From Bolinopsis microptera (Eukaryota > Ctenophora > Tentaculata > Lobata > Bolinopsidae), in contig NC_087075.1 of the NCBI RefSeq assembly GCF_026151205.1, positions 7,830,858-7,894,857 of the forward strand: a stretch of DNA of 64,000 nucleotides, read 5' to 3'. Every line of letters starts with the position of its first letter. Position 1 is the stretch's first letter. The position numbers and the translations under genes are program-made. Below, in pieces: positions 20,739-63,228 of the stretch. The notes under the pieces were generated by a model. It had not been told where the DNA came from. It ran no database searches and saw only the letters and a list, made by a program, of their open reading frames with translations.

Positions 20739-21090
20739 TCCTGATAGAAATTTTTGTATTAATTTATTTAATGTTCTTTACGTCTTTAGCGAGTAAAATT
20801 AAAAATAACAGGATTATGTATTATAATTTGTAACTACTCAATCATCAAATTATTAAATAAAATATATAATCGAGCCACAAATTGTATTTAGCAATTAACC
20901 AAAATTAATAGAGTACACTCTAAAGTTTGCAGTATCGTTCAAATATTTTGTTGGATAACTGACAAGATTTTGAAAGTTATCAAAATTCTGTCCCGAGTAA
21001 ATCTATCGAACATGCTATAATATAATATAATGTTTTAATGTATTAACTAGCGAAGTTCTCCTTCCTGAATCTCTTGGATTAAACTACAGT

Positions 21091-22352
21091 TCAGATGAGG
21101 TGGTATTGCCTAGATCTTATGTGGTTCAACAAATCGTCCTTGGATTTAGGATTACAGTCACAGTACTCGCAGCCATACAGCCCACTATGAATCAACATAT
21201 GCCTTTTCAAAGATCCAGCCGTCTTCACTTTAATGTCGCAGAGAGTACAGCACAGAAAGGTTTATCTCTGGTGTGTGTCCGTTTGTGAGTAGTAAGATTG
21301 CTCGAGTGATTTGATTTATAATCACACAAACTGCAAGAATAAGGTTTCTCCCCGGTGTGTGTCCGTTCGTGATTAGCAAGAAAACTCGATCGATTCGATT
21401 TATAATCACAAAAACTGCAAGAATAAGGTTTCTCCCCGGTGTGTGTCCGTTTGTGACGAGCAAGATCGCTCGATCGATTCGATTTATAATCACAAAAACT
21501 GCAAGAATAAAGTTTATCTCCGGTATGTATCAGTTCGTGACGAACAATATCGCTCGATTTATTTGAATTATAATCACACAAACTGCAAGAATAAGGTTTC
21601 TCCCCGGTGTGTGTCCGTTTGTGACGAACAATATCACTCGATTGATTTGATTTATAATCACACAAACTGCAAGAATAAGGTTTCTCTCCGGTGTGTGTCC
21701 GTTCGTGACGAGCAAGATTGCTCGATTGATTTGATTTATAATCACACAGACTGCAAGAATAAGGTTTCTCCCCGGTGTGTGTCCATTTGTGACAAGCAAG
21801 ACCACTCGATCGATTCGATTTATAATCACACAGACTGCAAGAATAAGGCTTTTCTGTTCGTTTCTGTTTTTTCAACCTATGTTTAGTCCCAGACGGAGTG
21901 GTTTCTCCAATAGATAGAGTTTCAGCCTGAATACCACAATCAGACTCGGTAGGTATAGGAACAGAAGAAGAATTTCTTTTCGCAGGTCTTACATTCGATG
22001 ATTTTAGAGCAAGATTACAGTTATCACACTGAAGTTCTTTATAGTCCAAAGGTTCAGCTTTAGCCAGGACGTCACGGAAAATTCTGACATCCTCCATCTT
22101 TGCAACTTCACCTACTTGTTTGAGGTGTTCTGAACCAGCTTCAACCTGATCACATAGCACGGCTTCATCTTTCATAAGTTTGTTATTTTCGTCGTTTTCC
22201 TCACATTTCAGGTTGTTATTTTCGTCGTCTTCCTCACATTTACAAGTACATACTGATGATAACCAGGTTGAAGTAGGGTTAACTGGTTGGTCGTCTGTCA
22301 TCTCTTCTTTGATATCAACCCCATCAAACTTTTCTGTTTTTTCAAGTGACAT
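21091..22352 (-). CDS. C2H2 zinc-finger protein, family 1 copy 3, seven fingers
   Basis: The uninterrupted frame is 21225..22352, 375 residues. The N-terminal acidic region matches copy 2 and has an extra internally repeated CEENDENN segment. Seven near-identical 28-residue C2H2 fingers follow ([10 protein letters not shown] core, HTGEKP linkers), so three fingers were gained or lost relative to copy 2. The frame closes at [12 protein letters not shown] because of the same 2-base insertion as in copy 2; the displaced continuation (21091 to about 21250) still encodes a finger and C-terminal tail. Its role would be sequence-specific DNA binding in the nucleus. The repeat-rich array favours unequal crossing-over. 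Confidence 0.75.
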
Positions 22353-28413: not shown

Positions 28414-29151
28414 TTAGGGTCCTGTTGCAGCGTGCATACTACGACGATGTCTGTCCAGACAATCTTTCCTATAGCACTTATATGGACAGTTGACACATTT
28501 ATACGGTTTTTCTCCAGTATGAATCATCAGATGACGTTTAAGATTATGTTTCTGAGTGAAAGACAACGAACATTCCTTGCACTTGTTTGGCTTCACTCCA
28601 GAATGAGTCCTCTCGTGTGAGACAAGATTATATTTCTGAGCAAAATTTAGGGAGCATGTTCTACACTTATATGGTTTATGTGTAGTGTGGGTCCTCTGAT
28701 GTCTATTAAGATTAGATTTCCCAGTAAATGATAAGGAGCATTGTTTGCATTTGAAAAGCTTTTCGCCATGCTGAATACACCGATGACGTATAAGATAAGC
28801 ATTTGAAGAACAAGCATACACACACTTTAAGCATTTGAAAGGTTTCTCCCGACTGTGGATCAGTAAATGTCGTAGAAGGTTTCCTTTCCGGAAAAATGTG
28901 AGGGAGCAAACATCACATTGAAATTGCTTTTCTTGCAGAACTGTCTTTAAATCGCTTCTATGTTTTGAAGACACATTCTCATGATGATCTTTGATATGTT
29001 CAAAGAATAAAACCTCACACAAAAAATGGGCTTCACATCTGGGACAAATCAAACCCACTGATTTCCCAGTATATTCCTCCTGTTCTGTTTTTGTTTCCAT
29101 ATTGATCGGATTTAAAACAGCAACGTAGAGCTGTTTACTTCGTAGAATCAT
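28414..29151 (-). CDS. C2H2 zinc-finger protein, family 2, seven fingers
   Basis: 245 residues. The ATG lies seven bases after an acceptor (TTGTTTGCAG), so an upstream non-coding exon is probable. An N-terminal degenerate acidic segment with METKTEQEEYTGKS is shared with the other family members. Finger 1 (ICPRCEAHFLCE...H) stands apart. Six more canonical C2H2 fingers follow with partial HTGEKPYKC linkers, ending HRRSMHAATGP. It probably binds DNA in the nucleus. The 34.6-kb paralogue shares the last two fingers almost exactly. No broken positions were seen. Confidence 0.85.
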   Translation of the reverse strand: MILRSKQLYVAVLNPINMETKTEQEEYTGKSVGLICPRCEAHFLCEVLFFEHIKDHHENVSSKHRSDLKTVLQEKQFQCDVCSLTFFRKGNLLRHLLIHSREKPFKCLKCVYACSSNAYLIRHRCIQHGEKLFKCKQCSLSFTGKSNLNRHQRTHTTHKPYKCRTCSLNFAQKYNLVSHERTHSGVKPNKCKECSLSFTQKHNLKRHLMIHTGEKPYKCVNCPYKCYRKDCLDRHRRSMHAATGP

Positions 29152-29597
29152 GGCTAACCTGCAAACAATTTGTAAGCGTACAAATTCTTACTAACTTACA
29201 TTATACTGATAAAGTGAGTGTAGCAGCATCAGCAGGATATATTGAACTCACAATTAAATTCATTTATATATTAAGTTTAAGAGCGTTATTATCTTTTGTT
29301 GAGGGATAATTGACTATAATTTTATATATCAAAGGATATCAAACATAAGTTTTAAAAACTTAATGTTTTCTTAAATCAATCAAATCTATGAACAGCACCT
29401 TCTCTATGCAGTAAAACGAATCGAAAACACTTTAAAACGATTATCATTTATTTTAGACTAATCAAATGAAAACAGAAAATGGTACTGAGCTTAAAGTTAC
29501 ACAATGTTCAAGTGCCAATAAAAGTTGACTCCTTAAGTCCTAGTGCACAAGAAAAGTAAAAAAATCGATATTCAATAGCTAAACAGCAATAAAAGAC
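29152..29597. other. No gene seen
   Basis: AT-rich spacer between the zinc-finger gene and the BTB gene, both on the - strand. Confidence 0.4.
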
Positions 29598-31247
29598 TTA
29601 AAATAATGTTTTTGTCGAAGCATCAATTTTGTATAGCACCTTAAATGTATTAAGAGGATCATTACCACTCATACCAGGTACATCACAATCGATCAGGTCA
29701 ATCCCGCACAACCAAGAAATAGGGTTCAGATAGTGTTGTTCATTGATAACTAGATCAACATACATGTGCATATCTTCTGCTCGGATCTCATCATGAAGGT
29801 GTACTGGTTCGTTCAGATAATCTTCTTTGTCAGTACACAGAGTCACGGTTCTCAATCCAATCTCACTCGGGACGGTTTTAAGAATAAAGCCACAGCCAGG
29901 TAAGGTACACGAGGTGGTTGATGGGTGCCTAAATAGGAACTTGAACTTAGCTTCTTTTGATAAGAGAGAACGTGGCTTACTACACGTGTCCATACAATCA
30001 ATGATAACATACGAGCAATTATCTTCGGTAGTCGAGCAAAATGTTGACCTGTCAATCAAGTATAGCGTATGCCCCCAATTTTTTCCTTGAAACCTCGCAT
30101 GCTTTCCGAGAAATATTGGTGGCAAAAGTGGCCAGCCTCGTTTTTCTGTCATGCCTGTTATCGTTTCTGCCAACAATGACATATCAACATTGCGTCTCTG
30201 CCCTTTATACCATTGGTAATATCTCCATGTCACAATAGCTTCTAATACCATTAATAAACCAGTAACTTTCTTTGACTCAGACAACCAATCCAGTAGCTCC
30301 TTAAATGTGATTTCCCCATCCAGATCATGATACAGGTTGGGTATAATGTTATTTCTAGCTGGTAGCGCTAATGTTGAGGTACCTCCACTCACTTCAGTTC
30401 TCTTTGTCTCGATAGATTCTTTTGGTTCTGTAGTTTCAAGGGACATCAAACTCGTAGCTTTCCGGTGAAGTTGTAATGTCCATTTCATATTGTCTCTCGA
30501 GTCCGAGAGCCCCTCCAATACATCAAACAATTGATCAAAAAGGACCCTGTCCCCCCTTTTACATAGATTGAGGTTACAATTCTCCAGTAGATGTACAGAA
30601 GACACAGGTAGTACCGATCCCTGGACTTTCAACAACTCAGACAGCTGATTACTCAAAGTTTGGACAACATAGTTAACTTCAGTACCAGCTAGCTCTATCA
30701 CCATGTCTAGCTTCTGTGTGGACAGTCTGTCTGCATTCTTTAAATACTCGTCTATAAATTGCTGCTTCCATTTCAATATTTCAATCCTTCTGAAAGCCAC
30801 AAGGAGATAATCTTTAGATGTCAGGTTCTCAAAAACAAATGCTGCCTCTTCAAAGAGATAGAGTAGTTCTGTAAAAGACGGTGTCTTGATCGAGTCAGCA
30901 ACTTTGGTGAAATACTCGGAACATTTTTCAGCCAACCAAGACATTTCAAAAACAGTTGCAATCTTGTTGATGTCCCTAAATATTTCCCGGTTCATTCCCT
31001 CAACTGTTCCAGAATAAGCAGCATCGACGAACAGCTGAACAGCAGCTTCACTGAACTCTAACATGTCTACACTGGTCATGTGAAGTGTGGTTGTCATGTG
31101 ATTGATTACAGGGCTGTTGAAGGAGAGGATCACCGAACTGGCACCCACCTCACCTCCCTCACTTGTGTTTAGTTTAATATTGGAGTGTGTTGGAGATCCT
31201 TTCAGATGTATTCCAAAATCCATTGGTGCAACAACTTTGGGGGCCAT
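29598..31247 (-). CDS. BTB-domain protein, intronless
   Basis: 549 residues in one exon. Residues about 22-115 fit a BTB/POZ fold: after a short strand, a variant of the usual hxAHrxVLaaxSpxF segment reads VGASSVILSFNSPVINHM. Then come FSEAAVQLFVDAAYSGTV (the FxxxLxxhYtgxl helix) and IATVFEMSWLAEKCSEYF (the AxxhxhxxLxxxCxxhh helix). Residues about 120-235 look helical and BACK-like. The C-terminal 230 residues (WRYYQWYKGQ..., a Cys-rich stretch, then a beta-rich end) match nothing I recognise. BTB-BACK proteins often act as Cullin-3 substrate adaptors, but no Kelch or MATH domain is visible, so that is only inference. No introns in a neighbourhood of split genes suggests retroposition or an old single-exon family. 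Confidence 0.8.
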   Translation of the reverse strand: MAPKVVAPMDFGIHLKGSPTHSNIKLNTSEGGEVGASSVILSFNSPVINHMTTTLHMTSVDMLEFSEAAVQLFVDAAYSGTVEGMNREIFRDINKIATVFEMSWLAEKCSEYFTKVADSIKTPSFTELLYLFEEAAFVFENLTSKDYLLVAFRRIEILKWKQQFIDEYLKNADRLSTQKLDMVIELAGTEVNYVVQTLSNQLSELLKVQGSVLPVSSVHLLENCNLNLCKRGDRVLFDQLFDVLEGLSDSRDNMKWTLQLHRKATSLMSLETTEPKESIETKRTEVSGGTSTLALPARNNIIPNLYHDLDGEITFKELLDWLSESKKVTGLLMVLEAIVTWRYYQWYKGQRRNVDMSLLAETITGMTEKRGWPLLPPIFLGKHARFQGKNWGHTLYLIDRSTFCSTTEDNCSYVIIDCMDTCSKPRSLLSKEAKFKFLFRHPSTTSCTLPGCGFILKTVPSEIGLRTVTLCTDKEDYLNEPVHLHDEIRAEDMHMYVDLVINEQHYLNPISWLCGIDLIDCDVPGMSGNDPLNTFKVLYKIDASTKTLF

Positions 31248-34566: not shown

Positions 34567-35529
34567 CTAGGGTCCTGTTGCAGCGTGCATACTACGACGA
34601 TGTTTGTCCAGATAATCTTTCCTATAGCACTTATATGAACAACTCTCACATTTGTACGGTTTTTCTCCAGTATGAATCATCAGATGGCGTTTAAGATGTT
34701 GGTTCTCAGTGAAAGACAATGAGCATTCATTGCACTTGTACGGCTTCACTCCAGAATGAGTCATCTGATGTCTGAAAAGATGTGACTTGGTTCCGAAGGA
34801 TGCAGGACAATCACCACATTTATGTGGTTTTTCTCCTAACTCTAAGAGGCGCTTTTTCTTCATTGAAAATTGGGAATACTCCAAATCATATTTATAGATC
34901 TTTTCTCCTGTGTGGAGACGCTGATGCCGGACCAAAGTGCTTTTCGAAGTACATTCATAAGAACATTCCAAACACATTAACATTTTTTCTCGTGTGTGAA
35001 TTTTCTGATGATCAATCAGGCGATTTCTTAAAGGACCAGAATATGAACATTCCTTGCACTTGTAGGTTTTTGCAGAGTGCATAAGGCGGCGATGTTTGAC
35101 AAGACCAGTTTTGGAAGAACACTCACATGGACATTCAGCACACTTGAACGACTTCTCTTCAGCAGGAGTGAAACGACTTATACTCGCATCATGGTGAGCA
35201 ACGAAATTCTTATGAACAATCATGCAGGAAGAATGATCCTCCTTTGCAAGAATTGTTTGCAGCTTCATCACTTCTTCTGTTAGTTTTGACAGGTAAGCCG
35301 GCTTATTTGCAAAAGAGTGCAAACCCTTCCTGATTATATCATTATGATTTTTTTCGATATGTTCAATGAGACAACTTTCATAAAGAAAATGGGCTTCACA
35401 TTTTGGACATATGAAATCATGCGATTTTCCAGTAGGTTGTTCTTCCTCAGTTTTCATTTCCATTGCGATCGGCAGATCAGGGCCCGTATTCATTACTCCG
35501 TTAAGTGAATTTGTACTCTGCATTGGCAT
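34567..35529 (-). CDS. C2H2 zinc-finger protein, family 2, with one degenerate finger
   Basis: I chose the start at 35529 (MPMQSTNS) because an acceptor (CTTTTTGCAG) ends five bases upstream; the longer reading to 35712 runs through what looks like intron. This gives 320 residues. The N-terminal finger (FICPKCEAHFLYE) matches the 27.6-kb copy. After a linker of about 60 residues come six further intact C2H2 fingers and, between the fourth and fifth of the seven intact ones, a degenerate finger where both cysteines read Tyr (YKYDLEYSQ). The last finger ends HRRSMHAATGP as in the 28.4-kb gene. The TA element lies immediately downstream of the stop. Likely a nuclear DNA-binding regulator. Confidence 0.8.
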   Translation of the reverse strand: MPMQSTNSLNGVMNTGPDLPIAMEMKTEEEQPTGKSHDFICPKCEAHFLYESCLIEHIEKNHNDIIRKGLHSFANKPAYLSKLTEEVMKLQTILAKEDHSSCMIVHKNFVAHHDASISRFTPAEEKSFKCAECPCECSSKTGLVKHRRLMHSAKTYKCKECSYSGPLRNRLIDHQKIHTREKMLMCLECSYECTSKSTLVRHQRLHTGEKIYKYDLEYSQFSMKKKRLLELGEKPHKCGDCPASFGTKSHLFRHQMTHSGVKPYKCNECSLSFTENQHLKRHLMIHTGEKPYKCESCSYKCYRKDYLDKHRRSMHAATGP

Positions 35530-35766
35530 ATCCTGCAAAAAGTTATGTAAATCTCTCACTGTATTAACTGTACGAAAAGAAAACACTGAAAAGTAAACAA
35601 TTTCCATATTTATCAGTTTATGAGTTTTAAGAATCACAGAATAAAAGTTGAACCGAATAAATCTTCTCAAGATTATATTCCTTTTTTTTAATTTAAATTG
35701 AATTAACTTCAAGGCTCATCAAACGTTTCTTTCACCAGCAGTTATAATTGCAGCACCATAATACTA

Positions 35767-36489: not shown

Positions 36490-37796
36490 GGTGACTTTTT
36501 TTTTTTTTGTTGGGGACTGGCCCGTGGTACCAGCCAATGTTTACTCAAAAAATATATATAATATCAATGGTAATAAGAAATTCATCCCCGTGGGGCACAT
36601 GCATAAATATAAAATGTAAAGGAAATCTCAAACTATTCAATTTAGATTCTACCTGTAAAGTATGCAATGAAGGTTTATAATTTAAAGTTTTATTTTCCAA
36701 TGGTTAATAGGTAAAGATAAGAAAAGTAAAACAAGACTGAGCACTTCAAAATTTGTAGAATTTGTAACTTGATTTGAAATCGCGGCGATAAAAAAGAATG
36801 TCCTATGTTGGCAGTGTAATTGATGAGATATGCGACGTTTATTGAGTGATGCATAAGTGTGTGCATATAATCTAAGATGTAGAGACAAGGTTATTATCGG
36901 CATTTTGGTTTATGTTACGCTTTGATTTTCTTAGTCCTGTTATACAATATAACATGAAATTAGGCCAATCGTCTTCGATGTTTTCATTTTGCTGATCGAT
37001 GAGCATAGTTTTTATACAAGTTTTGTAAATGTTCAGGTTAAATAGACTAGGCGGGGAAGTTGCTGCAACATTATATCGGTTTATTGCTAATAATGGACCT
37101 TTAAAAAATACTGAGTTGTTGTAAGGGTGTTGACCATACTTTTCTGACCATTGTGTAGTGAGAATAGAATCCAGGTTAGTCTTAAATAATGGTGCACTTT
37201 TGGGAATTGTTTTCTTGAGAGACAATGGTACTAGATTAGGAAAGTTTTTCAATTTATGCATTAAAATGAGTGCGTTCTTTACAATGATACTGTGTACTGT
37301 CAATATTTTATGTGAATAAAAGCCAGACTTGGTACTTGCTGGGGGGATACCGTCCTTGTACCAGTAATTGACGAAACCAGGTAATACTGCTCGAAGGCCC
37401 ATTTTCTGTTTTACAAAAAGCGATTCAATATGAGACTTGGCAGCAAAACCCCATACAAGGCTGCAATAATTAAGGTGTGACTGCACAAAACTTTGATAAA
37501 TTTGAAGACGTGCTTCGAGAGGCAGATATTTTTTAAGTTTGTACATGACTCCTATGTATCTGGACATTTTCATTTTCATGGCAGAAATATGATGGGACCA
37601 GTTTAGTTTATCATCTATTATAACTCCTAAAAAACGGGCTTCTGTTTTTCTCTCAATTGTGACACCAGAAATTGCCACATCACGATAATTAAGATTTCTT
37701 TGTCGAGAGAAGATCATATAATTTGTTTTCTTAAGGTTGAGAGCTAAACCATTATTATCTACCCATTTAACTAAAGCATCGCTAAGAGTATAAGGT
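36490..37796 (-). mobile_element. LINE-C, 5'-truncated non-LTR retrotransposon
   Basis: Only the 3' third survives. The left edge has a run of T at about 36489-36502 that would be a poly(A)-like tail on the element strand. The coding part ends abruptly near 37796, as usual for incomplete reverse transcription. Confidence 0.7.
36872..37796 (-). pseudogene. LINE-C reverse transcriptase, C-terminal fragment
   Basis: The open frame enters from about 37796 (LVKWVDNNGLALNLKKTNYM) and runs to a TGA at 36872. It contains the end of the palm and the thumb (TEARFLGVIIDDKLNWSHHI, HLNYCSLVWGFA). The catalytic YADD is missing through 5' truncation. The remaining frame has no stop codon, so the insertion is fairly recent. 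Confidence 0.85.
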
Positions 37797-49529: not shown

Positions 49530-52500
49530 CAAATTAGATGTATAGGATACAAGGATACAAGGATACAAGGATACAAAAGTGATAATTATTTTATTGAATT
49601 CACAATAGTTATAATTCTGAAATAATTTAAGGTTACACAATTCTAGTTATTTACAAATGTGTAGGGATAAAATAGAAATGTTTTATAATACTATTTTTGA
49701 GGTCCTATAGCATTATGCATTGGCCAGTATTTGAGTGGAAATCTGGGCTCTTATAGTAGGCTGTAAAATTTTCGTTCACAGAGAGAATTGAATGGATTGC
49801 TCTTGCTGTGGCAGTAAATTTTGTAGGGTCTAGTGTTTTATCGGATAGCAAACCGGCTAGGTCAGTAATATTTTTGGGATGGAAGTTAAATTTTTCTCTA
49901 ATTGAGGAGTAGAGTAAACAGTCAGTTAGAACATGAATTTCGTCCTCAATAGGCTTAAGCCCCTTGCTGAAAAAGCAAAAAGTGCACCATCGATGTTCTC
50001 TTGGTACTAGGGGGGTTTCGTAACGGCCCCTCTCAATGTAAAGATTGTGGCAGCTAATACGAAACCTTGTTAAGCTTTTCCGAGCATCGGGGATCTTAAC
50101 CACTCCTAAGTATGTTTCTGGTTCAAAATCATGTTTAATTTGATTGTAGAATTCTAATTTAGGTGAGGATGCCTTGGCAGATTTCCAGGTATCCACAAAT
50201 TCTTCCCTCATGTTGTGACTGATTTGGGTAGAGAGCTTGGATTTTGAAGAGGATGAGTGAGGGAAGTTATATTTGGTGAGAAGATTAGAGATGTTGGTGT
50301 ACCAAGGAAGGCCCAGCATAATCTGCTCGTGAAATGCAGCGGAGAGAAGTTCATTTTCAGTGCTTTCAAGGCGACTATAGAAATCTATTGCAAGTTTGCA
50401 GGCTTCAAAGAAGAGGGGGTGGCGCCCACTTTCGCCCCAGCAGCCTATATTTGATGCTTTTGAATGGACAGACAAGGACCACTTGATAAACTTAAGGTGG
50501 AATCTTTCATAGTGGTCTTGTGAGATGTACCTGAGAGTATGCTGGGGGTTGGCTTTGCTATCTGTTTTGGAGAGGTATCTCATGGTTTTTGAGTGAGGAC
50601 ATAAGATTTGGCAGCCATAGAGCAGTATCGGTTTTATTAGAGAGTCAAATAGAATGTTTAGAGAACGGTGAGAGAGGGCATCTTTGACGATATTGCCTTT
50701 GAGGCCATAGAGAGCACGGAGAGCCTTGGCCCTCAGTTCAGTATTTGCTGCTGTAAAAGATCCATTTCTGTGGAATATAATGCCAAGATAGCAGTATTTT
50801 TCGGTGTGTTGGATGGGCTGGCCTCCCAAAATGAATGTTTCATAGGATTGTTTTCTTTTAGGAGGGCAGAATATGAGAATCTTGGTTTTTTAATGTTTAC
50901 TTCAAGGCCCATAGAGTTACAGAAGTCGAATAGGATGTTTATATTGTCTTGCAAGGCCTTGGGACTTAGGGCAAGTAGGACAAGATCGTCAGCCCAGAGC
51001 AGATGTGATATTAGGACGTCAGCTAGAATAGGATAATCACCAACAGATTTCAGGAGAGATGACAAGTCGTTGATATAGATTTTAAAAAGGTCCGGTGATA
51101 GGGGGTGTCCCTGCTCTGTTCCTTGTCAATATTAGGGGACAAGAGTTTGGAGATTTTTATATGAGCTATTGAGTTTCTATACATATCACTTAGGCAATTG
51201 AAGAAGTTTCCAGTTATTCCAAGGCATGTGATTTTGTGCAGAAGGAGGTCCCTACATACAGTGTCAAAGGCCTTTCTTAGATCAACAAAGCATGCATAGA
51301 GGCGAGCTTTCTTAACCTTGGTATATTTGTCAATGACTGTCTTAAGGGTAAAAACGTGGTCATTTGTTTGAGCACCCTTCGAGAACCCTAGTTGTTCTTT
51401 TGGGTCAGGGCAGTAGAGCTTTTTGAAGTGCAGGAGACGCTCAAGTAAGATGCTAGAAAACAGTTTACCCATACAGCTACCAACAGCTATTGCTCTGTAG
51501 TTGTCCGGGCTGAAATGGTTGCCAGACTTGTAAATAGGTGTAAGGATGATAGTGATGCTATGGACAGTAACCTGAGACCAGTGAGTGATCGAATGTTTTG
51601 AGGATGGCTTTGATACAAAGCAGAGTTAGGCTCTGAAGCATCTCGTTGGATATCAAGTCGTTTGAGCAACTTTTACCTTTTTTGAGATTTTTGATGGCAG
51701 AGGTCACTTCAGATTCTGACATGAGCTTATTTAGGATATCCAGATCTGGTGGTTCAGGGTAATGTTTGTGATTGTGGTGAGTGAGATCTGGCTCCTGGTC
51801 TGGTTTTTTATAAAGGGATGCAAAGAAGTCATGGAAGCTAGCTAAATCAAATTTGTCAAGTAAGGGGCTAGTGTCATGTTCTTGTTTGAGCCGTTTAAAT
51901 TTTTTCCAGTCGAGTATGTGACCTTCTTCTATAGCTTCATTTAGCTTCTTAAGGAAAGCTACTTTCTTACTGTTTACAAAATTGCTATGCTTGTTGCGTT
52001 GCTTAAAGTATTCTCGTCTGAGGATACTGTTACAGTGCTTACTACCAAGCCGATTTGCTAGCCTATTAAGGTTCCGCCGCGAGGAGTTGACTTGTGGGTC
52101 AAACCATTTTTTACGGGCAGAATTTTTGGGAGGCTTTTTCACTTTTAGGGCTATATCAGCAGCACTGTGGAGACATTTTATGACTGCATCGTTCAGTTCG
52201 TGATTGCCCTCCAGAGTACTGCTAAATTCATTTGTCACAATGCTTTCCAGATTGTTGATAATTTCGGGCGAGGTAAGGGCTTTTTTAAATAGTGAATGGG
52301 AGGTGTTGCTGTCCCACTTATAGCCACAAGGAAAGTTAGAAAAGTCTGGGAGCTGGAAGTTTGCGACAAATGGTTCAAATGTAGTGAGTTTCAAGACTAA
52401 TGGACAATGATCAGAGTATGATGTAAACTCTTTTACTTGGAGAGAGTTTACATGATCTCTTGCCCATGAGGTGATTACAAAATAGTCAACCACACTGCTT

Positions 52501-52784
52501 CCATTGTATTTGTGACAGGTCATTTTTCCAGTGGTGTCCCCAAGGGTACGACCATTGAGAATTTTGAGTTGGTTATTGATAACCATGTCAAGGAAGTGTT
52601 GGCAGTGGGGTTCAGATATTGTAAGGTCAGAATTGTTTCTTGGTTCTTCTATGTCGTGCTCGAGTCCAATGTCGTTATAGATGTCATGGATGGCAGGTGC
52701 ATAACAGGAAAGGATATAGTCTGGGAGTTTTCCAGTTCTTGCATTTGCATCGCCACACATAATAACTTCTCCCTTTTGACGTAG
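49530..52784 (-). mobile_element. LINE-D, 5'-truncated, decayed non-LTR retrotransposon
   Basis: The 3' end (left) carries a four-copy GATACAAG tail on the + strand (49548-49577), a simple-repeat tail. The 5' end stops within the endonuclease at about 52784, next to a short duplication AGGAAAACAACAATTT. Several frameshifts split the coding region. Confidence 0.8.
49705..52760 (-). pseudogene. LINE-D ORF2: endonuclease (partial) plus reverse transcriptase, frameshifted
   Basis: Frames in order: 52760-51558 (GDANARTG, SYSDHCPLVLKL of the endonuclease C-terminal half, then the linker and the start of the RT domain); 51472-51050 (GKLFSSILLERL, FVDLRKAFDTV); 51065-50733 (LLWADDLVLLAL, the catalytic box, and MGLEVNIKK); 50829-49705 (KYCYLGIIFH, YGCQILCPHS, and a C-terminal WCTFC...HVLTDC CCHC knuckle). 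At least three frameshifts, near 51560, 51090 and 50800, prevent one product. The ADD triad and the SDH motif themselves are intact. The WADD box and C-terminal CCHC suggest a different clade from LINE-A, -B and -E. Confidence 0.85.
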
Positions 52785-53377
52785 TCAGGAAAACAACAAT
52801 TTCAGGAAAACAACAATTTTATTTAGTATCAGTTACAGCAAACAAAAAATATATTTTATATAATATAATATAACTAGGACGAACTTTAGTTTAGAAATCT
52901 TGGGGGACTTGGAGTAGCAAGAGATTGACTAGAAGGTATATACCTTTTACCAAAAACGTCGAAAAGAATCCTGGGTGATACAGGATCGGAGAGTACAGAC
53001 CATAAAGTTTACGCACCCACCTTTGCCTCCAGAATTCTTGGTTGGTTGAAAATGTATGCTAACTTGGTCGTTTATACTCCAAGTCCCTTTGTTAAAAGAA
53101 GTAACATTATGTACGTCTGGAGTTAACTTCATTCAATAATAACAATATCAATATAGTCAATATCAATATCAGACTAAACTATCAAATAAATTATCAAATA
53201 TTATTTGTTAATTCGATCTGAATAAAAATTTAGTTAAGTTAAGATATTAAATAATTAAAAACATTACAACAAGTGGTTAAAAACGCCCAAAATTGATCTG
53301 AGAGCTTTTCAGTCTATGATACAATCATGATAGTAATATTAAGTGTGTTAAGTGTGTGCTGCTGCGATAAGAATAGA
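52785..53377. other. No supported gene; probable 3' end of LINE-E at right
   Basis: Contains the small direct repeat AGGAAAACAACAATTT (52787 and 52805), an unrecognised 61-codon frame on the - strand (52947-53132), and a CAATATCA-type run at 53140-53170 that might be the LINE-E tail. Confidence 0.4.
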
Positions 53378-56300
53378 TTACTGCAATTTAAAATTGTTTG
53401 GATTCCAAGTATCTTTTAAATCAGCAGCCTGTACTTGTAATAATAGTGCCTTGGTTCTCAATTTTATCAAGTTAATGGAAGTTTCTAGGCAATTGCTTGA
53501 GGTTAGAATTTTTTTATGAACAGTGTTCCAAAGCTTGGCTGCAGTGAACAAAAAAGTATTTGATTTATTAAGAAGAATAACCGTTAAACTCGTTGTACGG
53601 TTTGAAATGTTGATGGCCTCATAAAGGGAGTATGGGCAGTGGTACTTGATAATCTTAGAGAATTCTGAAATGCAATGGTACTTGAACAAGTTTTGAACTG
53701 TAAGAATTTTTAGTCTATTAAAAATGGGTTTTGTATGCTCCTTTTCAAAATGTTTATGGCCTAATCTTTGCATACCATATGGTCTAGTTCTTGCACATGT
53801 TGATTGTTTATCTAGATATGAGTCGAGATCACCAAAAAGGATCCTTATACAGTGCTTCTGAGTGATAAAAAGACTGTCATTGGACCGTTCCTTGATGACA
53901 ACACCCCAAACACTTATACCATAACTGAGATGTGATTCAAAAAGAGCATTATATATTTTCAAGTATAGTTCAGCAGGTATAGAGTGCCGGATTCTACAGA
54001 TTGCACCAGTCATGGTCCGCAGCTTTTTACGGATGTAGTGCATGTGGGCAATCCAGTTTAGCTTACTATCTATAACAACACCTAAGAATTTGGTATCCTT
54101 GACTTTAGTAATAACCTTACCATCGATGAATATTGATCTAGATTCATCTAGCAGGTTAGCAAATGGTCTAGTCCGCGCACAGGTGTCATCATATTCAGAG
54201 GCAGGTTTAAAATGTATGTAGCAGCATTTGGACATGTTGATATGAAGTAGATTACATTTCATGTAAATCGAGACATGTTTAAGTACTAAGTTGGCTTTTT
54301 TATATGTTGCTTCTCTAGATGGTCCTGATATGAAGATATTAGTGTCATCAGCATAAAGTACAAATTTCACCTCACTGTCTGAAAAACAGTTTACTATATC
54401 GTTCATATACAGTAGGAAGAGTAGTGGCCCAAGAATTGACCCTTGTGGTACTCCAAATTTCACGTCCATTGTTACTGATGGTACATCGTTATACATAACA
54501 TACTGCTTTCTGTTAGTCAAATAGCTTTTAAGTAAGGTAAGTGCTGAACCCCTAATACCGTAGGAATTTAACTTGCTTAGAAGAATATTGTGATCAAGGG
54601 TGTCAAAGGCTTTGCTCAAGTCAATGAATATGCCCAATACATGTTTATTGCTAGCCAGAGACTTTGTAACGGAGTCTATAGATTTGTGTAGAGCATGAGT
54701 GGTAGAATGGCCTTTTCTAAATCCAAACTGTGAGTCTGTTAGTACACCTTTAGATGTGAAGAAATTATAAAGGCGTTTGTAAATGATCTTCTCAAAGATT
54801 TTTCCAAATAAAGGTAATATTGATACAGGCCGATAATTTTCAATGCATTCCTTATTGTCTTTCTTGTAAATAGGAATAACTTTACCAGTTTTAAATATAC
54901 TTGGGAATGTACCACTTTGTATACATGTGTTGTAAAGCCTGGCCAAGGTACCAGCAATGAGCTTTGCCGATTTTTTTACAACGATTATAGGTATGTCACT
55001 CGCCTTGCCATTTTGAAAATCTCTGATGACCTCGACAATCTCGTCTTCATTAGTTTCTTCAAGGTATATGGAGTCAGATACTGAATTAGACATGAACTGA
55101 GCAAATGATTCTACTGGTTCCAGAGAAATACTATTGTTTGACAATACATTTTTATTGAGATTACTTGCAAGAGATGTAAAATATTCACAAAATTTGTTAG
55201 CAATTATTCGTCTGCAAGTAACTCTCTGGCCATCTATGACAAAATCGTCCTTACATCTAGACAAATTTTTACCACGGAGTTCATTTATAACTTCCCAAGT
55301 CTTTTTCGAATTCATGCTGTACTTCTTGAATTTTTGAGTATAGCACATAGCCTTTGCCATATTTATTGACCTTTTGAGAAACTTGTCGAATTCCTTGTAG
55401 TAGATGTGCTTGTTTGGGTCCCCGTCAGGTAGTTTTAATGTACAAGTCTTCTTCCATTCGAAATACAACCTAGCTTTCTTATCGATGGAATTAATTAGGC
55501 CCTGGGTAATCCAAGGGTTGGTTATGCTGTTACGTTTAGTGGTTCTAGGAGTTAGAAGTTTGCAAGACAAATCTATCTTTTCTTGAAATAACTGCATGAA
55601 AGAATCAAATGTGTTACAGCTGTGGTGGAACCTATCTACATCGTTTTCTATTTCAAGACAGAGCTTTTCTAAGTTAGCATTACTATAGTCGTAGTGTATA
55701 GTAATTTTGTCTGATGAATCAGGTGTTGGCACAGAGTCAGGGGAAAGTTCAATAAGAGTGAATATAGGGTGATGGTGGGAGATCTTGTCAGATATCACAC
55801 CAGAAATAAGGGTTTGATCTACTACATTGGTATGGATATTGTCAATACAGGTCCTGGAACAGCCAGGCATTTGGTGAGTTGGTACTGATATGGTTGGTAT
55901 GAAGCCGTTGTTGAATATTATTTCTTGGAATTTGTCCTCTGATGGAGATGGGTCCTTCAACATGTTTATATTGAAATCACCAAGAATATATACTTTTTTG
56001 CCATTCAGTTTTGAGAGAATACATTCATATGCTTCGTTGAACAGTTCAAGTGATGCGTTTGGGGGACGGTATATAACCCCTACAACAGTTGGGTCTTGCA
56101 AGCTAGTGATGGATACGAACAGTGATTCTATGTGTTCATTACAGAGAGATAAGCCAGGGATTTTGTTAAAGTTAAAGGAGTTGTGCAGGTAAAGACACAC
56201 TCCTGATCCTTTACCCTTGAACTGGTTTTTCTTTTGACAAAAATAACGTGATTGGTAACAGGAGGAGTATCCGTTAAGCTGATACAGAGTTCCATTTTCG

Positions 56301-56782
56301 GGATTAGTATTTGTTTCTGCAAGACCGATAACAGAGAATTTGTGGTCGATACAAGACAGCTCAACTGCAAAGTTGTCAAAGTTTGATGCATTTCCATCAA
56401 TATTTAGGAATAATTTGGACAAATATTTAGCTGAATTTTTAGGTAGGACGGTAGCATTCAACTCAGTTATGGAGAATGTTTTGCAATTTTCAAGAATCTT
56501 TGAGCTATTGTAGATAGATTCAATATAATTAACTGGCTCATCATCAATGAGGCCATTGTTTGCAAAGTGTGGAGCTTGGTAGAAAGGGTTGTACCGTACA
56601 ATATCATTGGTATCAGTGCATATTTTGCAGTATGTTGCATCTCGAAATTTGGTTATGTTATCATCAGTTTTACATTTTTTGTGCATTATTTTGTCACACA
56701 TCTGACAAATCAAAAATGGATGTCCAGCACGCACAGGTCTATCGCAACAGCAGCAGATTTCGCATATCAGTTTGACTACCAT
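53378..56782 (-). CDS. LINE-E ORF2: PHD-like finger, APE endonuclease (active-site Asp replaced), reverse transcriptase
   Basis: 1134 residues from an ATG overlapping the ORF1 stop. Residues 7-55 form a PHD-like C4HC3 pattern (C10/C13, C26, C29, H34, C37, C52, C55). The endonuclease shows IGLAETNT (catalytic Glu), YILGDFNINM and CIDNIHTN. The final motif, normally S-D-H-x-P, reads SHHHPIF, so residue 336 is His (codon CAC at 55777-55775) instead of the catalytic Asp. The reverse transcriptase is complete: ENYRPVSILPLFGKIFEK, FIDLSKAFDTLDHNILL, GVPQGSILGPLLFLLY, YADDTNIF with ADD at 811-813, and TKFLGVVIDSKLNWIAHM. No stops or frameshifts. The Asp loss would be expected to cripple target nicking unless another nick is used. 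Confidence 0.9.
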   Translation of the reverse strand: MVVKLICEICCCCDRPVRAGHPFLICQMCDKIMHKKCKTDDNITKFRDATYCKICTDTNDIVRYNPFYQAPHFANNGLIDDEPVNYIESIYNSSKILENCKTFSITELNATVLPKNSAKYLSKLFLNIDGNASNFDNFAVELSCIDHKFSVIGLAETNTNPENGTLYQLNGYSSCYQSRYFCQKKNQFKGKGSGVCLYLHNSFNFNKIPGLSLCNEHIESLFVSITSLQDPTVVGVIYRPPNASLELFNEAYECILSKLNGKKVYILGDFNINMLKDPSPSEDKFQEIIFNNGFIPTISVPTHQMPGCSRTCIDNIHTNVVDQTLISGVISDKISHHHPIFTLIELSPDSVPTPDSSDKITIHYDYSNANLEKLCLEIENDVDRFHHSCNTFDSFMQLFQEKIDLSCKLLTPRTTKRNSITNPWITQGLINSIDKKARLYFEWKKTCTLKLPDGDPNKHIYYKEFDKFLKRSINMAKAMCYTQKFKKYSMNSKKTWEVINELRGKNLSRCKDDFVIDGQRVTCRRIIANKFCEYFTSLASNLNKNVLSNNSISLEPVESFAQFMSNSVSDSIYLEETNEDEIVEVIRDFQNGKASDIPIIVVKKSAKLIAGTLARLYNTCIQSGTFPSIFKTGKVIPIYKKDNKECIENYRPVSILPLFGKIFEKIIYKRLYNFFTSKGVLTDSQFGFRKGHSTTHALHKSIDSVTKSLASNKHVLGIFIDLSKAFDTLDHNILLSKLNSYGIRGSALTLLKSYLTNRKQYVMYNDVPSVTMDVKFGVPQGSILGPLLFLLYMNDIVNCFSDSEVKFVLYADDTNIFISGPSREATYKKANLVLKHVSIYMKCNLLHINMSKCCYIHFKPASEYDDTCARTRPFANLLDESRSIFIDGKVITKVKDTKFLGVVIDSKLNWIAHMHYIRKKLRTMTGAICRIRHSIPAELYLKIYNALFESHLSYGISVWGVVIKERSNDSLFITQKHCIRILFGDLDSYLDKQSTCARTRPYGMQRLGHKHFEKEHTKPIFNRLKILTVQNLFKYHCISEFSKIIKYHCPYSLYEAINISNRTTSLTVILLNKSNTFLFTAAKLWNTVHKKILTSSNCLETSINLIKLRTKALLLQVQAADLKDTWNPNNFKLQ
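56776..56782 (-). promoter_or_regulatory. ORF1 stop/ORF2 start overlap (ATGGTAG) in LINE-E
   Basis: The - strand reads ATGGTAG: the ATG starts ORF2 and the TAG ends ORF1 in another frame. This layout suits termination-reinitiation for downstream ORF expression, as proposed for some LINEs. Confidence 0.6.
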
Positions 56783-58734
56783 GACTGGATTACAGATCTA
56801 CGAGAACGTGGGGAAAATCTATTTTGGGCCTTGGTAACATCACTGAACAACCTCCCATCAACGGGGCTACCTAGAATCTTATGGGCAATTGCCCGGGAGA
56901 GTTTGAAGATACCGCTTGACCCCAGGTGGATTGGGTCATCCGGCTTCTTGTACCTACAAAACTGTTTGTTCAGTAGACCCTCCTCATCGACAAAACTATC
57001 AAAATCTAAATTTCCTATTCTAGCGTTGGTATTACAGTACCCAAACAATATACTATTAAACTCCATGGCTCTCTCATTTAGCCAGGAGGACCTAGTTGGT
57101 AGGATTGGTGAAACTATAACTTTAGAGTAAGGACAAATTTCACAAATATTCGTGAGCTTCTTCGTCAGCTCATTAGCCCAGTGTTTAACATCACCCCCTC
57201 CCCTCTTAATATTATTTACACCACAGTGTACTACAACATTCTTATATCCTACACAAAGGGCAGGGTCTAACTGATCTATTGTGAAGCATTCAAGTCTTTT
57301 TCCAGGCAGTTTGTGACCGAATGTCCCTTTTCCAGCACCAAATCGGAGGAACCGGGTATTTGAGTCACCAATAATCAATGTTGCATTGCTACTGCTGCTC
57401 ACGTAGCGGAATGTTATACTGAATCTCACGTCCCTCCTTTCACTGCTCTTATCTATTCTGTGGTCCCAGAGGAACTGAGACTGCTTGCTCATGATATATA
57501 GACTGCGTCCCTCTATTGTCTCAATGACTTCCCCACTTTCTGATCCTTTCATTGAGAACTTAACTGAACACTGGCTTCCTAACGATACAGTGAAAATCGA
57601 ACTATCATGCACAAGCGAGTTCTCGTTATCCGAGTGTTTAGGGAGAAAACTGCTCTCATCATTGTACCGGTTGATCAGGCATTGATTAATAACTGTTTCA
57701 GGGCAAAGCTTCTTTATCCTTGAGGCAAGTTCAGCAAGAACTTCAGGCAGGTCTTCTGATATGGGCTTAGCAGCTTTTGCCCCGGGGTAATCATATCGTT
57801 CACCAAAGCTTATAACTCCATGCCCGTTTTCTGTGTTCTTGACAAAATCATCGTTCTGTTCAGCAAGGAAATCTAATAGCTGAGAGTTCAAGGTTGTATC
57901 AATGAATTCTGGTAAATAAGACATGATGTGCTTAGACTTAGGGTCGTCTGCACTTGAAGGCTTCTGTGCATCTAGCAGGAGCTGTTCATGGTCTGTTTCA
58001 CAGGCTGCTGGTGGCCCTATGATAAAAGGAGGCATGGGCAGGTCAGGAGTGGATACGTTTGAGGATCTGCTGTTTTTGAAACAGTTAATATCAACTTTGA
58101 GCTCAGCAAGCTTGGTGTTTATGGAGTCAAGAGTCCTAAGGTGGCTATCATTGTCTTTCAAGTTTTTAATGGATGTTTGAATATCTTCTAAGGACTTGTG
58201 TATAGAGCTTTCGTTAGAAGTAGTATGACCCATTGGAATGCTGGAGGGGGCTGACAAATAAGAAGGGGACTTAACCTCGTGGTCACATCTCTTGCCACTT
58301 ATTACAGCACAGACATTTTCTGCAAGGCCAAGCAGGGATAGTAGACCCTCTGCTAAGGTGAGTTTTTTAAGAGATGGGCAGCTCTTAACCATAGATGGCG
58401 TTATGATTGCAAATTTGTTCACATCAAGTTTTAGAATGTTACAGATGTTGAGCTTAATGATATCTACCTCTGAGCGCAGGCTCTGCGAGTGAGTCAACAG
58501 GAAGTTGTCAAGGGGGGTAGACCCTGAGAAGAAACTAAGGAGGCTGCTACAATCTTTATTTTCCTCTGATTCGTGGTATTCTGAAAGAATTATATTTTCA
58601 ACATCCTTCAGTACTTCGTCAATTTCCACCATAATGGTAGGAGTCGTGGGTGCAGGTGTAGTCTGATCCGGAACCGTAGTACTTGAAGTCTGGTCCGGAA
58701 CAGATTGAGAAGAGTCAGTGGGTGTATCGTTCAT
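56776..58734 (-). CDS. LINE-E ORF1: AlkB-like 2-oxoglutarate/Fe(II) dioxygenase fused to SGNH esterase
   Basis: 652 residues, starting at ATG 58734. Residues 1-35 are Thr/Ser/Pro-rich; about 175-225 are heptad-like (probable coiled coil). Residues about 268-445 match the AlkB fold: CLINRYNDESSF, H367-S-D369 (iron HxD), SSIFTVSLGSQ, EGRSLYIMSK, H425 in LWDHRID (third iron ligand), and R437-x5-R443 in RFSITFR, equivalent to the 2OG-binding arginines of E. coli AlkB (R204 and R210). Such enzymes remove methyl groups from nucleic-acid bases. Residues about 451-615 are an SGNH hydrolase: IIGDSN (Ser458), VVHCGVNN (Gly505, Asn507), DPIH (Asp600, His603). All catalytic residues are present, so both activities are plausible; substrates are unknown. 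The protein presumably binds element RNA. Confidence 0.85.
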   Translation of the reverse strand: MNDTPTDSSQSVPDQTSSTTVPDQTTPAPTTPTIMVEIDEVLKDVENIILSEYHESEENKDCSSLLSFFSGSTPLDNFLLTHSQSLRSEVDIIKLNICNILKLDVNKFAIITPSMVKSCPSLKKLTLAEGLLSLLGLAENVCAVISGKRCDHEVKSPSYLSAPSSIPMGHTTSNESSIHKSLEDIQTSIKNLKDNDSHLRTLDSINTKLAELKVDINCFKNSRSSNVSTPDLPMPPFIIGPPAACETDHEQLLLDAQKPSSADDPKSKHIMSYLPEFIDTTLNSQLLDFLAEQNDDFVKNTENGHGVISFGERYDYPGAKAAKPISEDLPEVLAELASRIKKLCPETVINQCLINRYNDESSFLPKHSDNENSLVHDSSIFTVSLGSQCSVKFSMKGSESGEVIETIEGRSLYIMSKQSQFLWDHRIDKSSERRDVRFSITFRYVSSSSNATLIIGDSNTRFLRFGAGKGTFGHKLPGKRLECFTIDQLDPALCVGYKNVVVHCGVNNIKRGGGDVKHWANELTKKLTNICEICPYSKVIVSPILPTRSSWLNERAMEFNSILFGYCNTNARIGNLDFDSFVDEEGLLNKQFCRYKKPDDPIHLGSSGIFKLSRAIAHKILGSPVDGRLFSDVTKAQNRFSPRSRRSVIQSW

Positions 58735-59003
58735 GGCGTAGAAGTGGTACAGACAGAGTCAAGAGCAGAGAAGGTATTGGCAGTATAATCTGGATTCTTC
58801 TTGACATAGGACGAGTATGCAGGGCTAATATAATAACATACCAAAAATAGGTCAAAATCAATATATAATAAAATAAAAAAATTAGATGTATATATATAAT
58901 ATATACTATATAGATAAAAGTCCAACTCGGCGCGCGCCGCGTTTTTCAGTAAATTATTGTATTGTTTGGATTGCACGTTGTAGCGCAATGCGTTACTGTG
59001 CCG

Positions 59004-59027: not shown

Positions 59028-59132
59028 TACTGTATATGTGTTTGAAATTTGAATTTATTTATGAATATAACATTATGTATTGATTATTTGTGGTAAATAA
59101 AATTTTTCTTTCCTAAAAAATTTTTCTTTCCT

Positions 59133-59246
59133 AGTACACTCATTGCATTAAGAGGAATCAGAGGAAGATCAACGGCCCAGCATCTTGAACTGCTAGACAT
59201 TTCCTTCAACCTCATCCCCCAGAAGACGAGCTTGGAGGTCTCCTAG
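59133..59246 (+). pseudogene. C-terminal scrap of a LINE-F-type protein
   Basis: The frame reads TLIALRGIRGR ... ending at TAG 59244-59246. It parallels the tail of LINE-F (TIIALRGERGIK at about 60450), so it is the last part of a second copy of that family. Confidence 0.55.
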
Positions 59247-60879: not shown

Positions 60880-61275
60880 TGCTTCCTCCTCCTACTTTTC
60901 CTCCTCCTCCCCCTGGGTCTTCCTGATCTTCCTCAGTCCTCTTCCTCCTCCCCTCCTCAGTCCTCCTCCTACTCCTCCTCCTCGTCCTCAGTCCTCCTCA
61001 TCAGTCCTCCTCCTCCCCAGTCCTCCTCCTCCTCCTGAGTCCTCCTCCTGGGTCCTCCTCCTGGGTCCTCCTCCTCCTCTTCATCCTCCTCCTCTTCCTC
61101 CTCAGTCCTCAGTCCTCCTTAGTCCTCCTCCTCATCCTTCTCCTCAGTCCTCCATCCTCCTCCTCAGTCCTCCCCCAGTCCCCCTCCTCCTCCTCCTCCT
61201 ATTCAGTCCTCCTCCTCCTCCTCCTCCTTCTCAGTCCTCCTCAGTCCTCCTCCTCCTCCTCCTCTTCCCTCTCAG
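60880..61275 (+). repeat. Pyrimidine-rich (CTC/TCC)n tract of about 400 bp
   Basis: Almost pure C/T on the + strand, made of TCCTCCTCC interspersed with CAGTCCTCC. Long polypurine-polypyrimidine mirror-like sequence with triplex-forming potential. Confidence 0.95.
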
Positions 61276-61694: not shown

Positions 61695-63228
61695 GAAAAA
61701 GTGTCTATTATTATTATTATTATAAAACAGGATCTTACCGACAAAAATGATTCTTAAAAATACCCTAATGCGGTAAACTGTACCCTTGAAAAAGATTTTC
61801 CCAACATCTGTTGCATGCAGCTATATCTCTAATTTCGTTCAATTCATGCAAGTTTTCCATTTGCAAATTTCTACTACTTAAATCACTTCTTAAAACCGAT
61901 AACAAGTTCATTCTAGGTCTCCCCAATCTACCAATGAATAAATTATCTGATTCAATTGCAAAAGAGAGAGCCGTTTGGGCTGGGGTGTTCTCCATACTCC
62001 TGAGAATGTGTCCAAACATCTTCCACCGCTGGTGTTCAATACGCTTGGATAACTTTTCAACTTTGCACCGTTCATACAATGCTTTGTTGCTTATCATACC
62101 TTTAGGCCATTTGATGTTTAAAATGGACCTGAGGTGTCTACGATGGAGTGTGTCCATTTTCTCCATGGTTGCTTTCTTAGGACTCCAACTATTTGAGTTG
62201 TAAATCAATACAGATACAACTTGAGCATCATATAACTTCAGCTTTCTTTCAAGGGAAATTTTCTTACCGGACAACCATACTTTTCCAAAGTTCTTAAAAG
62301 CAATCTCAGCTAGGATTCTCCTTCTTTGAATGTCCTTCTCAGTGCAGAGTAAGGAACCTAGTGACTTGTTACTTCGCCATGGTTCGTTATTAGCTAATGG
62401 CTGACCGTTTGTGTCTTTATCAGATTTTTTCGCCAGGTAGAAGGTACTGAATTCAGTTTTACTTTCGTTTACTTGGAGGTTCCAGTCTTTGAGAATCTCC
62501 TTCGCTGTAGGAAGGAAAATTCTCAGTTTCTCGATGTCCTCGTCAGCAAAGTCACAATCGTCTGAATATTCCCACTCAGTAGGAAAACCTAGTTCTGATA
62601 CTGGTGGGTTTGGTCTCCCGGATACAGCTCTGAGGTGGTGTAAGGCTGCTGCAAGAATAAGTGTGAATAGCTTTCCAGATAAAGTATAAACTGTCACCTT
62701 GAAAGGCTCCGAGTAAACTTTCAAACTCTTCCGACAGTGAGGAGTTAACACGAACTCTAAGGAGAGTATTCGATAGAAGGTATTGAACTAAGCGAATGTC
62801 GTCCTCCGAACAACCAGCATCCTTCAAAACATTGATGATAGTATCCCTTTTTACGGTATCAAAAGCTCTACTCATATCAATACCCATTTTGCTAAATGTC
62901 CATTTCTTCCTCATCACAACAGATATAAGCATTCTCTGAGCCCACACAATGTCAGAGCAGCTCCTACCTCTCTTGTAAGCACTCTGCCATGGCATGGTGT
63001 AGTTGTCAATTCTACTCTCAACCCGTTTTAGGGCAATTTGAGTGAGCATCTTCCTCGATCCGTTTAACAGTGTAAGTGGTCTAAGGCTTGTGAGGGGACC
63101 TTTAGGTTTACCGGGCTTCTGTAGAGGAGTCACAATACCTTGTCCTATTGAACTTATGTATCTGTTCCCACTAAATGACTCATTAATTGCCTCAGCATAC
63201 TTCTCAAAAGTGATTGGAAAAAGTGTCT
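61695..63228 (-). mobile_element. LINE-G insertion with 12-bp target-site duplication
   Basis: GAAAAAGTGTCT occurs at 61695-61706 and 63217-63228. Repeat R copy 1 has the single-copy site (15745-15760 region), proving the insertion. The 3' tail (left) is a TTA/AAT microsatellite next to the duplication. The element is 5'-truncated, about 1.5 kb. Confidence 0.9.
61765..63133 (-). pseudogene. LINE-G reverse transcriptase fragment, frameshifted once
   Basis: The first frame (63133-62576) has PLTLLNGSRKMLTQIALKR, MGIDMSRAFDTVKRD and GAFQGDSL; the second (62751-61765) continues SGKLFTLILAAALHHLR, WEYSDDCDFADE (YSDD variant of the catalytic box), LQVNESKTEF, and the C-terminal RHLRSILNIKWPK...GRLGRPRMNLL...CNRCWENLF. 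The shift lies near 62690-62700, between GDSL and SGKLF. The N-terminal endonuclease is missing through 5' truncation. The QGDSLSGKLFT box in place of GVPQGSxLGP places it in a different clade from LINE-A, -B and -E. Confidence 0.85.

Follow-up and report, generated by a model that had tools for sequence, protein, structure and literature searches.

An AlkB-type dioxygenase fused to an SGNH esterase in the ORF1 of a LINE from the ctenophore Bolinopsis microptera

We analyzed a 64,000-nucleotide stretch of the Bolinopsis microptera genome (hereafter, the window; contig NC_087075.1, positions 7,830,858 to 7,894,857, from an assembly of 264.65 Mb in 232 contigs), which carries a copy of a long interspersed nuclear element (LINE) of the apurinic/apyrimidinic endonuclease (APE) type with two open reading frames (ORFs). 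The ORF1 protein of this element combines two enzymes on one scaffold, an AlkB dioxygenase dependent on Fe(II) and 2-oxoglutarate (2OG) and an SGNH esterase, fused in one frame and directly coupled to ORF2, which encodes the reverse transcriptase (RT); the Fe/2OG site and the Ser-His-Asp site are both intact (Table 1). A sequence-only reading of the window had proposed a LINE ORF1 with a complete AlkB-type domain beside an intact SGNH esterase, and both its location and its domain content proved right.

Table 1. Features of the LINE copy in the window, and related loci elsewhere in the genome.
Feature	Position	Strand	Basis
LINE copy, 5'-truncated	52785..58744	(-)	family-copy alignments; longer relatives elsewhere in the genome share ~6.6 kb
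ORF1, 652 amino acids (aa): N-terminal helical region, probable coiled coil, AlkB, SGNH esterase	56776..58734	(-)	
ORF1 residues 73-146, helical region, mostly confident prediction	58297..58518	(-)	predicted structure
ORF1 residues 175-224, long helices, probable coiled coil	58063..58212	(-)	helices predicted; coiled coil inferred
AlkB-type 2OG-Fe(II) dioxygenase, ORF1 residues 262-447	57394..57951	(-)	profile, fold, alignment
H367-x-D369-x-E371: two iron ligands and the Glu common to ALKBH2/3	57622..57636	(-)	
H425, distal iron ligand	57460..57462	(-)	
R437 (2OG) to R443	57406..57426	(-)	
SGNH/GDSL esterase, ORF1 residues 450-622 (S458, G478, N507, D600, H603)	56869..57387	(-)	
ATGGTAG, ORF2 start overlapping ORF1 stop	56776..56782	(-)	
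ORF2, 1134 aa: PHD-type finger, APE-type endonuclease, RT	53378..56782	(-)	
C4HC3 finger, ORF2 residues 10-55	56618..56755	(-)	ligand conservation in alignment
17-bp tandem repeat at 3' terminus, 2.1 copies	52785..52819	(-)	
Chimeric copy L038	G000:C6:20484200-20492600		
Apparent chimera L041	G000:C19:55000-64999		
Helitron with AlkB, L042	G000:C10:16873800-16878800		
Other Helitron frames with AlkB	C3:14441692, C12:8338315, C12:2469580, C9:15868177, C9:11092850		

The element and its two enzymes

The profile and structure checks that the sequence-only reading had proposed both identify AlkB. Pfam PF13532 (2OG-FeII_Oxy_2) matches ORF1 residues 311-443 (2e-16) at 61.2 bits, well over the curated cut-off of 31.2, and the predicted structure has an AlkB fold nearer to ALKBH3/ALKBH2 than to ALKBH5; in an NCBIfam scan, all matches were far under cut-off. 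Aligned with E. coli AlkB (the gene taken from the K-12 genome record), H367, D369, H425, R437, and R443 correspond to H131, D133, H187, R204, and R210, including the arginine spacing noted beforehand, and N355 and Y357 correspond to N120 and Y122. E371, at a position (D135/E136 in AlkB) that we take to contact the base, sits at the Glu of the HxDxE motif of ALKBH2/ALKBH3; against AlkB, a one-residue gap pairs it with E136. According to the titles of 4nii, 4nih, and 4nig, D135/E136 are altered in AlkB structures with N6-methyladenine (m6A). A family profile of 45 sequences (the ORF1 query and 44 selected from 100 homologues) matches ALKBH2 (2e-18), ALKBH8, ALKBH3, and AlkB over the first domain. 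By its HxDxE motif and its closest fold among solved AlkB structures, the domain resembles the ALKBH2/ALKBH3 repair subgroup, with which it shares the fold, the Fe and 2OG residues, and HxDxE; it differs from the human enzymes in having 22-25% identity over the aligned fold, in being fused inside a transposon protein, and in standing apart in a tree. We liken its putative action to that of ALKBH2/3 and class it as a member of neither. A chance pattern is rejected by the presence of the domain in all 100 homologues returned, by near-invariant catalytic columns, and by 0/20000 occurrences in shuffles of the same ORF, a weak control given that the motif pattern was derived from this ORF.

The esterase match in Pfam (GDSL lipase, 0.0012) is sub-threshold. 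Over this second domain, the family profile matches several SGNH hydrolases, including 4c1b, an 'ORF1-encoded protein' (5.5e-5) that is presumably the ORF1 protein of zebrafish ZfL2-1; the ZfL2-1 esterase is absent among the best 50 fold matches listed, which does not count against the relation. S458, N507, D600, and H603, already read as intact from the sequence, are all present and conserved, as is G478, and this Ser, Gly, Asn, Asp, and His set, together with the relation to LINE esterases, identifies an SGNH esterase of the kind found in type IV ORF1 of LINEs. Members of the CR1/L2 group with this ORF1 type, such as ZfL2-1, have in common with the window LINE an N-terminal region with a coiled coil followed by the esterase in ORF1, an APE endonuclease and RT in ORF2, and the Ser-Asp-His and Gly/Asn esterase residues (PMC3905857; for this and the other papers cited, our statements refer to the portions of text available). 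Unlike them, the window LINE has AlkB before the esterase, and its ORF2 opens with a PHD-type finger, reported also for L2 subgroup 5 and CR1 subgroup 4, whose ORF1 types differ (PMC4120745).

The claim that AlkB is not a standard part of LINE ORF1 stands insofar as the architecture lies outside the five LINE ORF1 types described, in an account whose available text contains the word 'alkb' 0 times (PMC4120745); it needs qualifying for retrotransposons at large, given that an orchid Ty3/gypsy element carries AlkB in an additional ORF (PMC9289625). No description of AlkB in a LINE was found in titles and abstract openings of the open-licence PMC literature, a search with subscription papers and Repbase outside its scope and not aimed at Helitrons. 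Automatic names in the database, e.g., 'alkylated DNA repair dioxygenase AlkB', already flag the domain in some homologues.

ORF2 matches RVT_1 (PF00078, 6.8e-36), and its RT motifs are kept throughout the alignment ([YF]ADD in 121/121 rows, GDxN in 118/118 non-gap rows), while the endonuclease matches to PF03372 (0.003) and PF14529 (0.0032) are both under cut-off. Of the 121 rows, 100-108 have no gap at a given ligand of the C4HC3 finger, and in these all eight ligands are conserved throughout, apart from a single exception at C29; by Pfam, a PHD finger (PF00628 or PF13831) was matched in both ORF2 homologues scanned, P0178 and P0192, and not in the window ORF2 itself. Within the endonuclease (window 55766-56341, ORF2 residues 336-337), the position preceding the near-invariant His337 holds His in 79/121 rows and Asp in 9/121; APE enzymes have Asp there. 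The APE-like endonuclease and RT in ORF2, with many dispersed copies, some truncated, make the element an APE-type non-LTR (long terminal repeat) retrotransposon. We place it provisionally in the CR1/L2 lineage from its ORF1 type, PHD-type finger, and 3' tandem repeat.

The window copy is a 5'-truncated insertion. Family copies match it from 58744 down to about 52786-52779; it begins 10 nucleotides before the ORF1 ATG, and other copies reach further upstream, with the pairs L013/L014, L018/L019, L023/L027, and L026/L040 having 6.58-6.60 kb in common. ORF1 is nonetheless complete and only the 5' leader is absent, because the same ATG is the first in-frame ATG in L012, L013, L014, and L016. Around both ends of the copy, no convincing target-site duplication was found.

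Conservation, selection, and exchange among copies

A database search with ORF1, its scoring limited to the 7990 candidates with most words in common with the query, returned 100 matches, all of them with PF13532 (a domain that the query itself contains) and five with Mnemiopsis leidyi as the named host. The catalytic columns are near-invariant against a mean column identity of 28% in the ORF1 alignment. Among 113 AlkB-bearing homologues, the five core AlkB residues are intact in 108, the exceptions being P0059, P0060, P0084, P0100, and P0233; all nine AlkB and SGNH sites are kept in 96 of the 106 homologues with residues at all nine, with D600 differing in six and N507 in one. Free drift of the catalytic residues, which together with a missing AlkB fold had been named in advance as grounds for abandoning the assignment, was not seen, although one lineage has lost residues (discussed below). 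Among LINE homologues, the identities of AlkB and esterase are correlated (r 0.83), which sets the LINE AlkB apart from that of plant RNA virus replicases, likewise a selfish element's own AlkB, for which nucleic-acid repair has been proposed (PMC544882).

Searching with the esterase only gave 61 matches, 54 with AlkB and seven without. The AlkB-less proteins (P0234-P0240; 394-423 aa, 34-39% identity) have a CxxC motif in the N-terminal third followed by the esterase, and P0228 combines a similar CxxC segment with AlkB, which suggests either an insertion of AlkB in front of the esterase or its loss from the AlkB-less group. As a proxy for linkage, exact size coincidence of source contigs occurred 10 times between the 100 ORF1 matches and the 120 ORF2 matches listed of 347 (partners recur in some pairs), whereas 5000 jitters gave 0.9 on average and 7 at most; direct genomic adjacency supersedes this measure. 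Public viral contigs searched with the ORF1 protein, its alignment, and ORF2 held no locus encoding a relative, and public genome contigs searched with the ORF1 alignment gave two Bacteroidales loci whose match was limited to part of the esterase, at query residues 498-588.

At least 68 ORF1 matches lie in the element's own genome, the full-length ones grouping at about 98-100%, 86%, 78-80%, and 52% identity. We compared 31 loci (the window and 30 fetched, picked mostly as full-length open copies), of which 29 have ORF1 open over at least 640 codons; left out are L014, which has an internal stop, and L041, whose scored copy has a shorter frame. Across all 29 open copies, window included, the thirteen AlkB and SGNH residues checked do not vary. 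In 22/31 loci, an ORF2 frame, either full-length or reduced, follows directly on the ORF1 frame, and the remaining loci have a stop, insertion, or truncation between the two. ORF2 gave 44 genome matches (from 41 of 7310 candidates scored; some are second pieces of one copy), with an ORF1 match no more than 20 bp away in 21, within 9 kb in 12 more, and none nearby in 11.

Between element families, in active lineages, the AlkB part is under purifying selection. The ratio of nonsynonymous to synonymous substitution rates (dN/dS; Nei-Gojobori, six between-family pairs) was 0.05-0.19 for AlkB, its lowest values being rough, 0.08-0.12 for the esterase, and 0.09-0.15 for the N-region; the measure was unusable for the 52% family, which is saturated, and for the WIN-L012 pair, with too few changes. 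A decayed pseudogene is rejected.

Parts of the element have been exchanged between families. Copy L038 is chimeric, with the ORF1 of one family (97% to L027 over AlkB and esterase, 91% over the N-region), the ORF2 of another (96.5% and 98.7% to L032), and the switch at the ORF1/ORF2 border. Another copy of this kind appears to lie at L041, whose ORF2 is 63.2% identical to the window ORF2, just as that of L038 is, and stands next to an ORF1 match of 78%. The window copy and L027 have 72% identity in AlkB, 91% in the esterase, and 97% in the RT, so that these lineages probably differ by another switch close to the AlkB/esterase border.

AlkB in Helitrons and the origin of the domain

A PF13532 search of the genome gave at least 151 matches (150 of 587 candidates scored), all matches listed being above cut-off and most of their open frames having the size of the LINE ORF1. 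Two more AlkB-bearing open frames (551 and 697 aa) lie just before the window (G000:C4:7830187-7830567 and 7811915-7812364). Six matches share their open frame, 2225-3388 aa long, with Helitron_like_N (41 matches in the genome; the two domains were paired by equal frame length and strand and by coordinate spacing divisible by three). In L042, the one frame of the six that was read, the order is SGNH domain, proline-rich stretch, and AlkB, the reverse of that in the LINE ORF1. Its SGNH match is under cut-off (4.8e-6, 27.6 bits against 32.9), and its AlkB match (2.7e-21) has NFY, HKDDE, FHRI, and RFSLTFR intact. The L042 esterase is remote from that of the LINEs (best 23%, E 2.6e-5), and the identity of its AlkB is 29-35% with the eight LINE AlkBs that match it best and 28-30% with human ALKBH3/2. 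The pair may have been transferred between LINE and Helitron or assembled twice. A comparable case is that of TET/JBP dioxygenases, carried by fungal DNA transposons and also by some Helitrons; these belong to another 2OG subfamily, and the available text of that study reports no retrotransposon with TET/JBP (PMC12730594).

Recent capture of the host's own ALKBH2/3 is rejected. The genome has an ALKBH2-like gene (48% to human over 125 aa) and an ALKBH3-like gene (41% over 128 aa), to which the window AlkB is 29-30% identical, as compared with 31.5% to the Helitron AlkB. In an unrooted tree of 22 selected rows and 186 columns, whose cellular rows are ALKBH2/ALKBH3 only (no ALKBH1, 4-8, or FTO), 17 LINE AlkBs and one Helitron AlkB group together against the four human and host rows (97/95, with long branches flagged), and the LINE-only group has 64/91; an earlier 32-row tree with E. 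coli AlkB gave no resolved placement. Lying outside both ALKBH2 and ALKBH3 in the 22-row tree, the transposon AlkBs appear not to be an offshoot of either.

Proposed role, alternatives, and surroundings

LINE replication needs one RNA copied end to end, and methyl groups on the pairing face of bases hinder reverse transcriptases. As with other LINE ORF1 proteins, ORF1p would bind its own RNA in cis. The AlkB domain would then use Fe(II), O2, and 2OG to strip pairing-face methyl groups, such as N1-methyladenine (m1A) and N3-methylcytosine (m3C), from the RNA template and single-stranded cDNA, keeping reverse transcription unblocked; the groups removed could be damage or placed by the host. The esterase may anchor the particle on membranes or lipids, a role proposed for that of ZfL2-1, which is active and binds acidic phospholipids (PMC3905857). 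For another element, R2, m1A impedes the RT, and AlkB treatment removes m1A and m3C (PMC12140624). That the element repairs or de-modifies its own nucleic acid, as the sequence-only reading suggested, is plausible, and we favor N1/N3 demethylation, giving it about an even chance, since single-stranded nucleic acids are common to repair-type AlkB, end-to-end reverse transcription, and Helitrons, and m1A hinders RT. An intact enzyme in copy after copy hints that the LINE cleans its own genetic message before copying it.

Several points weigh against this reading. The substrate class is suggested by motif and predicted fold. Helitrons, which have no RNA intermediate, carry AlkB too, so a role on the RNA template cannot be the sole one. 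The P0100/P0233 lineage lost H367, E371, H425, and R437 yet keeps the domain and the esterase residues, and catalysis is therefore not always needed. The 29 open frames among 31 loci are not a random sample, given how the loci were picked, and AlkB dS is above 1.5 in three of six pairs and 1.49 in a fourth, i.e., near saturation. Low dN/dS is constraint on the protein and does not single out catalysis.

Next in rank, and on balance unlikely, is an AlkB acting on DNA, repairing N1/N3-methyl lesions such as m3C or erasing a methyl mark in the element's single-stranded or chromatin DNA, at integration or in silenced copies. Cytosine methyltransferases leave m3C, and rolling-circle transposition uses single-stranded DNA; DNA-directed action would fit LINEs and Helitrons alike, which share single-stranded DNA steps, as well as the six giant frames that join AlkB to Helitron_like_N and the DNA repair enzymes ALKBH2 and ALKBH3 as closest predicted folds. 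However, LINE ORF1p is generally an RNA-binding protein, and this analysis gave no sign of DNA binding by ORF1.

Rather improbable is an eraser of m6A or a similar mRNA mark that hides the transcript from host readers. Such a role was proposed for the orchid Ty3/gypsy AlkB, which demethylates m6A in vitro and is, like ours, encoded by a retrotransposon; that AlkB lies in an LTR element, in an additional ORF, near plant m6A demethylases, and is reported as recent, from Phalaenopsis (PMC9289625), whereas the window element is a LINE with the domain fused within ORF1 in several diverged families. The m6A option is less well supported because the predicted fold ranks nearer ALKBH3/ALKBH2 than ALKBH5, the motif is HxDxE, and L1 in human cells is aided by METTL3 and suppressed by ALKBH5 (PMC7873242).

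More doubtful still is an AlkB fold serving mainly as a nucleic-acid-binding module or structural spacer with dispensable catalysis. The P0100/P0233 lineage speaks for it but is just one nested branch in the tree, and the retained fold of the P0233 model is weak evidence, the model having been built with catalytic relatives in the alignment; the core residues are intact in 108/113 homologues and in 29/29 open genomic copies. Functionless, accidental capture of a host gene is barely credible: AlkB-less relatives exist (7/61 esterase matches), but selection and conservation contradict it: dN/dS is low, the sites are intact in several diverged families, and identity to the host ALKBH2- and ALKBH3-like genes is just 29-30%.

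Returning to demethylation of the element's own nucleic acid, we tentatively suggest, while thinking it somewhat less probable than the N1/N3 activity itself, that the AlkB and SGNH pair is a tool common to unrelated transposons (LINEs and Helitrons) of one animal lineage, self-carried and exchanged between element families, which removes base methylation from the element's single-stranded nucleic acid, be it for repair or in counter-defence to methyl groups placed by the host. Self-repair or unmarking of transposon nucleic acid can be tested directly with a LINE that has its own AlkB, and the presence of AlkB in Helitrons of this genome too suggests a pressure that bears on transposon nucleic acid in general. 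The two ORFs may also be a natural RT and demethylase pair, useful for sequencing modified RNA.

Other LINE pieces lie in the window, with RT/endonuclease matches at 592-3567, 5903-8854, 51558-52760 (adjoining the 3' end of the element), and 61765-62751, the last two weak, and a piece resembling this element's ORF2 at 36872-37717. PF13532 (E 0.01) matched none of the eight other window ORFs scanned. On the (+) strand, 59099-59133 has two copies of AAAATTTTTCTTTCCTAA following TAAATAAAATT; it resembles the 3' terminus of this LINE in opposite orientation and is possibly the tail of another element. The ORFs at 19887-22352, 28414-31247, and 34567-35712 look C2H2 zinc-finger-like by eye and are probably host genes, as is a BTB-domain ORF at 29598-31247 (PF00651, 1.7e-5). 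A TCC-rich tandem array occupies 60884-61268, and a repeat at 25146-25896 is open on both strands.

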